A stretch of 64,000 bases of DNA, from NCBI GenBank assembly GCA_949294085.1, contig CASFFX010000004.1:62001-126000 (forward strand). The letters are read 5' to 3'. Below, in pieces: positions 23,981 to 32,091 of this stretch (position 1 is its first letter; the number at the start of each line of letters is the position of its first letter). The position numbers and the translations under genes were made by a program. Source of the DNA: an uncultured bacterium. GTDB lineage: Bacteria > Elusimicrobiota > Elusimicrobia > Elusimicrobiales > Elusimicrobiaceae. A model generated the notes under the pieces. It did not search any database. It was not told the origin of the DNA and worked only from the letters and a program-made list of their open reading frames with translations.

Positions 23981-24121
23981 CACTTTTATTGTATCGGTTT
24001 TGCGCCCAAACGGGCAACCGATAAAAGTGGTATTCGGATTATAACAGAAAACAAAACTTTTGTTATTTGTTATAATTTATATTATATTAATTCACATCAA
24101 GGAATTCGTGGAAAAATAAAA

Positions 24122-24676
24122 ATGTACGAAGCGTTTGTACCCAAAGAGATATTCCTTACCAAAGGAATCGGCAGACACAAAGAAAAACTGGCCAGCTTTG
24201 AAGAAGCGTTGAGAGACGCCAAAATCGCCAGCTTTAACTTGGTGCCTGTTTCCAGCATCTTCCCTCCCGGCTGCAAAACCGTGCCCGTTTCCAAAGGGCT
24301 TCAAGAATTGCACCCGGGCCAAATTCTGCATTGCGTCATCAGCAGAAACACCAGCAACGAATACCGCCGCTTGATTTCCGCTTCCGTGGGTCTGGCGATC
24401 CCGAAAGAAGGAAAGAAAACGCACGGGTACATCTCCGAGCACCACAGCTTCGGCGAAACCGACAAACAAGCCGGCGACTACGCGGAAGATTTGGCTGCTT
24501 TGATGCTCTCCACGACGTTGGGCATCGAGTTTGATAACAACACCACTTGGGACCAGAAAGAAGAAATCTGGAAAATGAGCGGTAAAATCGTCCGCACCAC
24601 TAACATTACCCAGTCCGCCATCTGCGTGGAAGGTCTTTGGACCACCGTTGTAGCGGCGGCTGTGTTTGTAAAATAA
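24122..24676 (+). CDS. pdaD: Pyruvoyl-dependent arginine decarboxylase
   Basis: Encodes 184 residues from MYEAFVPKEIFLTKG; the frame is open upstream, but that part runs antisense to the M3 peptidase and is not family-like. The self-cleavage motif VPVSSIFPPG places the Ser44-Ser45 pair where the pro-enzyme splits to form the pyruvoyl group, and the later GYISEHHSFGE and CVEGLWTTVVAAAVFV are also typical. The enzyme turns arginine into agmatine without pyridoxal phosphate. It sits 13 bases before an agmatinase, giving a complete route to putrescine. A TATAAT at 24071-24076 in the AT-rich upstream region could be its -10. Confidence 0.9.
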   Translation: MYEAFVPKEIFLTKGIGRHKEKLASFEEALRDAKIASFNLVPVSSIFPPGCKTVPVSKGLQELHPGQILHCVISRNTSNEYRRLISASVGLAIPKEGKKTHGYISEHHSFGETDKQAGDYAEDLAALMLSTTLGIEFDNNTTWDQKEEIWKMSGKIVRTTNITQSAICVEGLWTTVVAAAVFVK

Positions 24677-24689
24677 CTCCGGTAACATT

Positions 24690-25574
24690 GTGAGCGATAA
24701 CGTACAAACCGATAAGTTTATGGGGCTAGAGAGCAAATACAGTTCTCTGCCCCTTTGTAAATTCGTGGTAGTGCCCGTCCCGTTTGAAAAAACGGTGTGC
24801 TACGGACACGGTACCGCCAAAGGCCCTGCCGCCGTAATTGAAGCTTCCACCCAAATTGAACTTTGGGACGAGGAAACCAAAACCGAAACTTGGGAACTCG
24901 GCATCAATACGCAGCCTGCCGTAAACTGCAAAGGTTCCACCAATACGGTGTTCAAGAACATTGATAAAACCGTGCGCAACCTGATGCAGTACAAAGCCAT
25001 TCCGTTCTACATCGGCGGGGAACACACCGTTACCCAAGCCCTGGCACAGCCTTATATTGATAAATATAAAGATTTGAGCATCCTGCACTTTGACGCCCAC
25101 GCCGATTTGCGCGAAACCTTTGAAGGTACGCCCAAAAGCCACGCGTGTGCGCTGTATCCGGCGTCCCGCCAGGTGCCGGTGGTGCAGGTGGGCATCCGCA
25201 GTGTGGCCAGCGAAGAAAAACAATACTGCAATGCCGGCAAGGTAACCACGTTTTTAATGCACGAAAACCGGGACATCAAAAAACTGATTCCCCAGGTGCT
25301 TAAAAAACTGACGGACACCGTGTACATCACCATTGACGTGGACGGCTTTGATCCGTCCGTCATCCCGGCCACGGGCACGCCCCAACCCGGCGGATTTATG
25401 TGGTATGAAGCGCTGGATTTGTTCCGCGAAGTCATTAAACACAAAAAAATCGTGGCGGTGGACGTGGTGGAAGCCTGCCAAAGAAAGGCCGACGTCATTA
25501 CGGAATTTAACGTTTCCAAGTTAATTTACCGGCTAATGGGCTACCTGGCCTTGAAAGACCAAAAGAAAAAATAA
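24690..25574 (+). CDS. speB: Agmatinase
   Basis: Encodes 294 residues from a GTG start (MSDNVQTDK); an ATG ten codons later is the alternative. Ureohydrolase metal motifs are present: GGEHTVTQ, ILHFDAHADLRETFEG, and TIDVDGFDPSVIPATGTPQPGG. A glutamate follows in VAVDVVEAC. The enzyme hydrolyses agmatine to putrescine and urea. Pairing with a pyruvoyl arginine decarboxylase just upstream fixes the role better than the sequence alone, since arginases and guanidinobutyrases look alike. A terminator pair follows. Confidence 0.92.
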   Translation: MSDNVQTDKFMGLESKYSSLPLCKFVVVPVPFEKTVCYGHGTAKGPAAVIEASTQIELWDEETKTETWELGINTQPAVNCKGSTNTVFKNIDKTVRNLMQYKAIPFYIGGEHTVTQALAQPYIDKYKDLSILHFDAHADLRETFEGTPKSHACALYPASRQVPVVQVGIRSVASEEKQYCNAGKVTTFLMHENRDIKKLIPQVLKKLTDTVYITIDVDGFDPSVIPATGTPQPGGFMWYEALDLFREVIKHKKIVAVDVVEACQRKADVITEFNVSKLIYRLMGYLALKDQKKK

Positions 25575-25713: not shown

Positions 25714-26427
25714 TTAGAACTGGTACGACAATTTGAAAAGCAGGGTAACGTAATGCAGGTTTTCGCTGCCTAAGCCGGAGAAAAATTGATCGTAGTCAAA
25801 GCGGAAACTTTGATATCTTCCCTCCAAGCCCCACAGCCACGAGCCCGCCAAGCGGTGCTCCACCCCCAGCCCGGCATAGTAGGTAAAAGAACGGCTGTTG
25901 GCAGCCTGTCGGGCCTCCGTGTACGTCGTCGTGCCGCTGTTTTGTTCCCAAAAGCTGTTTTTAATGGTGCTTTTGGCAAACGCAATCCCCGCGCCAAACG
26001 GCACATAAAACCGAAAACTCCCCTGCGGGTTGAGCGTAAAACGGCCGGCCGCCATGACGTTGTGGACGTCCATATCCTGGTCCACTTCCGCCTTCATATG
26101 CTGCCCGGCCCCGCCCCAGGCGTTCAATTCATCGGTAGCTCCGTCAAACCAATTGGCGTTATACTCAGCCCCAAACGCCCAGTACGGGCTGACGGCATAC
26201 AAGTATTGCGCTCCCAGGGCCACACTCTCGTCGCCCCAGCCCAAATCGTTCGTAGTGCCGAGCGGATAGCCGGTATCGTCCCGAAAATCAAAGAATAACG
26301 AAGTGTCGTTCGTCGCCCCGCCGGCACCGACAAACACCGATACCAGTTGGTCGCCTTTTTGCAGCCCTTGCGCCACGGTCGGCGCAGGCCACGCACTAAG
26401 CAAACTGACTAAAACGGCCAGGAACAT
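25714..26427 (-). CDS. Outer-membrane beta-barrel protein with a frameshifted start
   Basis: The intact frame encodes 237 residues from an internal ATG (MFLAVLVSLLSAWP). The mature part begins near AQGLQKGDQLVSVFVGAGG and alternates beta strands ending in a C-terminal phenylalanine (LLFKLSYQF), the usual outer-membrane insertion signal. The better start, with AGGAGG eight bases before it, is the ATG at 26440-26438, but there an A7 run puts it out of frame and it stops after 14 codons. The neighbouring paralogue has A6 at the same place and reads MKKLTLLAV. With six A's this gene would begin MKKLMFLAV. It may be switched, broken or misassembled; the internal ATG has no ribosome site of its own. 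Confidence 0.75.
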   Translation of the reverse strand: MFLAVLVSLLSAWPAPTVAQGLQKGDQLVSVFVGAGGATNDTSLFFDFRDDTGYPLGTTNDLGWGDESVALGAQYLYAVSPYWAFGAEYNANWFDGATDELNAWGGAGQHMKAEVDQDMDVHNVMAAGRFTLNPQGSFRFYVPFGAGIAFAKSTIKNSFWEQNSGTTTYTEARQAANSRSFTYYAGLGVEHRLAGSWLWGLEGRYQSFRFDYDQFFSGLGSENLHYVTLLFKLSYQF

Positions 26428-26430
26428 CAG

Positions 26431-26437
26431 TTTTTTT
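26431..26437 (-). repeat. A7 homopolymer at the start of the barrel gene
   Basis: Seven A's (minus strand) immediately after the ATG at 26440. One A fewer would restore the full signal peptide. The equivalent tract in the paralogue ending at 27262 has six. Confidence 0.85.
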
Positions 26438-26496
26438 CATGGAAAGTTCCTCCTAGGAATTTTTCTTAATAACTATATCATACCAATTTTGGATAT

Positions 26497-26545: not shown

Positions 26546-27262
26546 TTAGAAACGGTAGCCCAGTTTAAGCAACAAGGCAAAGTAGCTTTGGTCCTTTTTG
26601 TCCAATCCGTCCATAAATTTCCCGTAATCAAACTGAAAGCCCTGGTAGCGGCCTTCCACTCCCCAGATCCAGTCCTGGCAAAAAGTCCCTTCTACACCCA
26701 AACCCACGTAGTACGCAAACGAGGTGGTGCGTTTGCTGTACGACCCATTGGTGCGGTCAATCTGTCCGCCCTCATTGGTAACGTCGTCCAATTCAAAGGT
26801 AGCTTTTGCAGAAGCGATACCCAAACCGAGCGGTACATAGAAGCGCACCTTGGACTGCGGGTTGACCGTATAGCGGCCGGCTACCATAAAGTTTTGCACG
26901 TCCATTTTGCTGTCCACTTCGCGCTCGCCCCAATTGTTCCAGTCCACAAAGTATTCCCGTTCATATTCGGCGTCGCCAAAGTTGTTGCCCATGTATTCGG
27001 CCCCAAGGGCAAAATGCGGCGTAACTGCATACATGTATTGCACACCGTAAGACGTAGAAGCATCGCCCCAGTCCAGCGTGTCGGTGTCAAAGTCCTCCCC
27101 GGTAACCACATCCGCCGTAACACCGGAGTCATTGAGAGGCATACCGCTTCCCAAGAAAACGGACACCATTTGGTCTCCCTTTTCAATTCCCTGCGCCAAC
27201 GAAGCCACAGGCCACGCGCACAACATACTTAACAGTACTGCAAGTAACGTCAGTTTTTTCAT
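26546..27262 (-). CDS. Outer-membrane beta-barrel protein
   Basis: Encodes 238 residues. MKKLTLLAVLLSMLCAWPVA...LAQG is a Sec signal with a good AGGAGG ribosome site. The mature start GIEKGDQMVSVFLGSGMPLN and end SYFALLLKLGYRF (terminal Phe) match the neighbouring frameshifted paralogue; FYVPLGLGIASAKATFE, YYVGLGVEGTFCQDWIWGVE and EGRYQGFQFDYGKFM align too. Eight or so beta strands fit an OmpW/OmpA-like small barrel, but the family cannot be fixed by eye. It sits 118 bases upstream of the frameshifted copy, with a terminator between, so each may be expressed separately. Confidence 0.8.
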   Translation of the reverse strand: MKKLTLLAVLLSMLCAWPVASLAQGIEKGDQMVSVFLGSGMPLNDSGVTADVVTGEDFDTDTLDWGDASTSYGVQYMYAVTPHFALGAEYMGNNFGDAEYEREYFVDWNNWGEREVDSKMDVQNFMVAGRYTVNPQSKVRFYVPLGLGIASAKATFELDDVTNEGGQIDRTNGSYSKRTTSFAYYVGLGVEGTFCQDWIWGVEGRYQGFQFDYGKFMDGLDKKDQSYFALLLKLGYRF

Positions 27263-31455: not shown

Positions 31456-32091
31456 ATGAAAAAATTATTTTTGCTGTGCGCGCTGTTTCTGGCCGTGCCT
31501 GTGGTAGCGCAGGAATATTACGGCTTGCAGGAATACGGCTTGCGCAAAAACACCACCCGCATTGAATTTTATGGCGGTATGGTGCTGCCCCAGGACGACT
31601 GGGCCCATAACGGACAAAATGTAGATTTGGGCGGTACGGGCTGGACGGCCGGGCTGGGCTTTGTACGCAATATTTCGTCCGTTTTCTCCTTAGGCATGGA
31701 CGCCAACTACGCCCAGCTGGGGGACGGGGACAACTTTACCTCTGGCAGCCAAACCGCGTATTACCGCACCGGGCTGGCCACGGGCCTTGTAACGGGGCGC
31801 ATTAACTTCTTCCCGTCGCAATCCACCCGCTTGTACATCCCGGTTGGCATCGGCGTAGGCCATATGTTCGCCCGCCAGAAAAACGAGGACGGCTCCCACC
31901 TGACCACCGACAGCACCGACCTGGCCACCATGCTGGGCTTGGGGTTGGAATTTGATATTGACGAAACGGTGATCTTTGGCGTGGAAGGACGCTACTATTT
32001 CCTGGACGCCCAAGACGAATTCAAAGATACGTTCGGCAAAGGCCACTATCAGTATATGACGGTCATGCTGAAAATCGGAACCCGTTTTTAA
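31456..32091 (+). CDS. Outer-membrane beta-barrel protein (third small barrel)
   Basis: Encodes 211 residues with a Sec signal (MKKLFLLCALFLAVPVVAQE) and an AAAGGAG ribosome site. It ends with TVMLKIGTRF, a C-terminal Phe like the two barrels at 25714-27262, and shares the strand pattern SVFSLGMDANYAQLGD, RLYIPVGIGVGHMFARQ and TVIFGVEGRYYFLDAQ, where GVEGRY matches the other two. It is a diverged paralogue. It lies in a different operon, between kdsC and the transporter, and ends before a terminator. Confidence 0.78.
   Translation: MKKLFLLCALFLAVPVVAQEYYGLQEYGLRKNTTRIEFYGGMVLPQDDWAHNGQNVDLGGTGWTAGLGFVRNISSVFSLGMDANYAQLGDGDNFTSGSQTAYYRTGLATGLVTGRINFFPSQSTRLYIPVGIGVGHMFARQKNEDGSHLTTDSTDLATMLGLGLEFDIDETVIFGVEGRYYFLDAQDEFKDTFGKGHYQYMTVMLKIGTRF

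Follow-up and report, generated by a model that had tools for sequence, protein, structure and literature searches.

A seven-base A run closing the start of a predicted outer-membrane barrel gene: a candidate slippage allele in the Elusimicrobiaceae

Repeat runs in known surface genes

Classical contingency loci carry long homopolymers or other repeats in the genes for outer-membrane proteins of Neisseria, Haemophilus, Campylobacter and Helicobacter. The gene analysed here, barrel B, lies in a stretch of 64,000 nucleotides (the window) and shares with these loci a predicted surface product, a repeat within or ahead of the 5' coding region and a reading frame that is set by the repeat number. 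Unlike them, its family has only short runs (A5–A7, T7, G6–G8), its genome carries MutS and MutL, and it is known from sequence alone.

The closest precedent is the 5' A6/A7 tract of inlA in Listeria monocytogenes, for which Orsi, Bowen and Wiedmann (2010; PMC2831843) give rates of ~5.5e-7 for the gain of an A (A6 to A7) and ~3.9e-8 for its loss (A7 to A6). In both genes a short A6/A7 run stands at the 5' end of a surface-protein gene, and a change of one A leaves a very short peptide, of 8 amino acids in inlA and 14 in barrel B. The inlA change has at least two independent origins, and closed starts are found in two or three lineages of the barrel family (PMC2831843 for inlA). However, A7 is the in-frame form of inlA and A6 the out-of-frame form, opposite to barrel B, and the inlA work compared strains of one species and measured rates, whereas barrel B is compared through one genome per species and from its letters only (PMC2831843).

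The frameshift-gene clusters that were classed as phase variation with GeneTack (Antonov and others 2013; PMC3711429) are also similar: several homologues are frameshifted, in some of them the shift coincides with an A/T run of seven or more, and the product is at the surface. Yet that class also presupposes that the family was already tied to phase variation (PMC3711429). The barrel family has no such earlier tie, and its shift positions vary from one homologue to another. Barrel B would fit a known kind of on/off surface gene. A literature search on phase variation in Elusimicrobia found no relevant report, and another, which asked about escape from phage through the loss of barrels in gut metagenomes, was of no help.

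The start of barrel B and its run in relatives

Barrel B and its tandem paralogue barrel A, ~0.8 kb apart, both match the Pfam profile OMP_b-brl (PF13505) above the curated cut-off. In its predicted structure (mean pLDDT 86) barrel B forms eight main strands, and its best match among solved structures is OmpA (E 1.8e-8). The profile score (37.9 bits vs a cut-off of 28.7) and the small transmembrane beta-barrel fold of the model place it in OMP_b-brl, beside the small barrels of the OmpA/OmpX/OmpW type (PF13505), whose profile match and eight-stranded fold it shares; compared with OmpA it lacks the C-terminal domain, and its identity to solved barrels is only 12–17%. Barrel B is predicted to be a gene for a small, eight-stranded, OmpA-like outer-membrane protein.

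The two barrels are flanked by an agmatinase gene and a TPR protein gene. In the stretch ~24000–25574 on the plus strand, the former (Pfam Arginase; agmatinase by context) comes after a frame that resembles a pyruvoyl-dependent arginine decarboxylase; the two are likely an arginine-to-putrescine pair. A third small barrel of the same family, intact and of 211 amino acids with the start MKKLFLLCALF, is located ~4 kb from the pair (31456–32091, plus strand).

Read on the minus strand, the region upstream of barrel B consists of a Shine–Dalgarno AGGAGG (26454–26449), a spacer of 8 nt, an ATG (26440–26438), seven A's directly after this start codon (26437–26431), CTG, and a second ATG at 26427. 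Translation from the well-placed ATG 26440 gives MKKTDVPGRFSQFA and then TAG, i.e., only 14 codons (26396–26440), as the first-pass annotation had claimed and as direct reading confirms. The barrel frame itself runs from ATG 26427 to 25714 with no stops in 237 codons, and its preceding in-frame stop is a TGA at 26439–26437 that overlaps the first ATG. Because ATG 26427 has no Shine–Dalgarno sequence and would begin a signal peptide without the usual lysines or any other basic residue before the hydrophobic stretch, little barrel is expected from it. A promoter-like extended −10 of putative function (TTGGTATGATATAG; 26474–26488, minus strand) stands upstream, and similar bases also precede several barrel B orthologues. 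Barrel A (26546–27262, minus strand; 238 residues; PF13505) is intact and has the six A's and the normal MKKLTLLAV start with which it had been annotated. The remaining claim, that the frame of barrel B is intact over 237 residues and has not decayed, is borne out by the open frame and by the constraint seen in dN/dS; all the sequence statements of that annotation are correct.

The genome, G000, is a draft of metagenome type or similar (1.5 Mb in 12 contigs). The 66 genomes of the genus set each represent a different species, so run lengths can be compared between species only; a contig search for relatives found three, with no second genome of this species among them. Starts in which a Shine–Dalgarno sequence and ATG are followed by A6 or longer are out of frame in 1 of 12 cases in 388 kb of G000, the one being barrel B, and in 0 of 15 in 392 kb of G065.

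In the set examined, barrel B has five orthologues (G014, G065, G024, G034 and G021). The length of the run, by its placement, sets the reading frame: A7 right after the start codon closes barrel B, while the closest relative, G014 (86% amino acid identity), has one A fewer and an open start, but also a 20-nt deletion in mid-gene. G065, with a GTG start and A7, is open owing to different bases downstream of the run; G024, with 93% nucleotide identity to G065, has ATG-A6 and is out of frame. The start is open with A5 in G034 and with A6 in G021, the latter having two inner indels, and a more distant copy in G077 reads ATGC-A7, a third closed start. Two sister pairs therefore show a one-A difference in the run, A7 in G000 against A6 in G014 and A7 in G065 against A6 in G024, with opposite on/off senses. 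The comparison of the tract in related genomes that had been proposed as a check thus does reveal variation by one A between sister species, although the G024 data point is weakened because that assembly carries an error in gyrB (see below).

Breaks and constraint across the barrel family

The pattern of breaks over the whole family is more interesting than the single A7. Within the genus, 10 of the 43 copies examined at the locus are broken, compared with ~4 of 125 for the two flanking genes, agmatinase and TPR (Fisher p 2e-4), and 3 of 12 lesions fall in the start A run, within 7 nt (p 2e-4 if lesions were uniform), both p values being optimistic because the compared subclades were not fixed in advance. 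By subclade, breaks affect 4 of 6 copies of B, 1 of 10 of A, all 5 distinct copies of the o5 clade and none of the others. Outside homopolymers the lesions include a TAA in G005, ATA in place of the ATG start of barrel A in G012, and the deletion in G014. More than one lesion is carried by G021 and by one G088 copy; few old, heavily decayed copies were met, and gene copies have been gained and lost at the locus among relatives. Two contigs of G077, C12 and C22, each hold the 3' end of agmatinase together with a different barrel copy; the C12 copy hardly differs from the one in G082, the two entered the count as one, and one of the two contigs may be wrongly binned.

These frames are nonetheless under purifying selection. 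Pairwise dN/dS is 0.08–0.24 for barrel B, where computable, and 0.07–0.18 downstream of the breaks in the o5 clade, which argues that the breaks are recent. For barrel B, ~0.3 stops are expected per 1% of neutral divergence and none is seen although dS to G014 is 0.45, so the break is recent on that scale. A coding frame kept by selection is what is looked for in a contingency locus, and barrel B has one. The first-pass annotation had suggested that further disruptions in relatives would point to plain pseudogenisation; relatives do carry breaks, yet these lie at differing sites, and constraint on the frame persists.

Two copies of the o5 clade, L073 and L076 (in G088 and G062), have both lost the frame at one shared T7-G site downstream of the signal peptide. 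Their differences are mostly silent, with a dN/dS of 0.066 at a dS of 0.37 between two closed copies; should the break have been inherited, the gene would have remained useful in its broken state.

Another OMP_b-brl paralogue, X, is found elsewhere in the genomes (L148–L177). Most of its 30 copies keep the frame, having G6 or an interrupted run at a DWGE motif, and 4 are out of frame at G runs: G7 in G067 (C49) and in G012 (C27), G8 in G016 (C1), and another G run in G081 (C18). Frame splits of this sort at G runs are characteristic of poly-G contingency loci.

Over 818 bp, the barrel A genes of G012 (L040, 2451–3267) and G067 (L069, 1094–1911) share 99.1% identity, with neighbouring genes at only 82–86%. 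This indicates a recent exchange of the gene between the two species, with an edge near the Shine–Dalgarno sequence. Fluctuating selection on a surface protein is consistent with a constrained gene broken recently, repeatedly and independently, and the exchange points the same way.

Competing explanations for the closed start

Most likely, the A7 is real and marks a null allele that slippage produced recently in the gene of a surface barrel silenced time and again. We hold with middling confidence the fuller reading, in which barrel B belongs to a gene family that is silenced again and again, while long-term purifying selection and fluctuating selection on the surface protein act on it. With one A more than the closest relative, ribosomes loaded at AGGAGG would enter a 14-codon dead end, and the sequenced allele reads OFF. 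This allele would have arisen recently by replication slippage, and a return to ON would be possible, so that ON and OFF cells may coexist. Phage or host pressure, for example, could make the selection fluctuate, and short homopolymers would offer a way to OFF that is often taken, at a low rate, and could in principle be reversed.

How far this amounts to switching is a separate matter. Phase variation of barrel B, the first reading of the run, is plausible: an intact and constrained frame, a recent break, one-A differences between sisters, the excess of breaks and the G runs of paralogue X all speak for it. Against a dedicated switch stand the short A7, the presence of MutS and MutL and the many family lesions outside homopolymers. 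The slippage rate should be low given that the mismatch repair genes are present, and the indirect signs (the short run, MutS and MutL) would be unfavourable to high reversible switching; even inlA gave only ~4e-8 for A7 to A6 (PMC2831843). We regard as tentative the broader proposal that the genus's small outer-membrane barrels are low-rate contingency loci, in which the A run of barrel B, the o5 T7 after the signal peptide and the G6–G8 of paralogue X would serve as independent switches and the genes would be kept functional over long periods by switching back.

If barrel B were a plain, recent pseudogene, a dispensable barrel of high turnover would have been lost by a random indel in its most mutable place, the A run, with the paralogue 0.8 kb away covering its function and no switching. 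The variety of lesions in the family (nonsense, start loss and a 20-nt deletion), the copies with more than one lesion, the coming and going of copies at the locus, and a short run in a genome with mismatch repair all agree with this. However, the same frames have long been under purifying selection, even between two broken copies (the o5 pair), lesions are concentrated in homopolymers in two separate paralogues, and old, heavily decayed copies are few; we consider the pseudogene rather unlikely. In G000 itself there is a single lesion in a constrained frame, though a very recent loss would look alike. Improbable, in our view, is a sequencing or assembly error in the A run of cells that carry an in-frame gene, the alternative that the first-pass annotation had left standing. 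The genome is a draft, and errors of this kind are real in the data set, as the gyrB of a sister assembly illustrates. Yet G000 has no other verified start loss or internal frameshift among ~190–198 pairs of orthologues with G065 (388 kb), its gyrB is intact, the 230 A7/T7 runs in 388 kb leave no trail of broken genes, and errors, unlike the breaks, should not be concentrated in barrel genes. Least probable is low-level expression of barrel B despite the A7, via transcriptional slippage, ribosomal frameshifting on the A run, or ATG 26427. RNA polymerase and ribosomes are both prone to slip on runs of A or T (PMC3711429), and the frame is still constrained. Against it count the poor second ATG described above, a folding z-score of +0.8, which points to no unusual RNA structure at the site, and the fact that most homologues start in frame and that shift sites differ, so that no programmed device is conserved. 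A run of seven A's is also at the low end for transcriptional slippage.

The sister-assembly error concerns gyrB, a single-copy gene that a one-base change in an A run disrupts in G024 only (C1, 470081–472521) and that is intact in 14 other genomes. Such a break is hardly tolerable in a living cell, which shows that sister assemblies do contain homopolymer errors; it is a probable assembly error and calls for caution with all homopolymer calls in the genome set. In the nucleotide lesion scan most calls were false, due to over-extended ORF starts, and only inner lesions were used.

Three further candidates were rejected. Hypermutation by lost mismatch repair fails on MutS and MutL, which are present and intact; genome-wide decay fails on the lack of any other start loss or verified split in the ~190–198 gene pairs; and programmed frameshifting or recoding fails on homologues that are mostly in frame, with lesions at different sites and no unusual structure.

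Returning to the probable slippage allele, the gyrB case means that homopolymer calls need read-level checks before further use, and one assembly per species can hide mixtures of ON and OFF. If real, the allele would add an uncultured lineage to those that toggle surface barrels through short homopolymers, and would single out the barrels as probable targets of pressure from phage or host.
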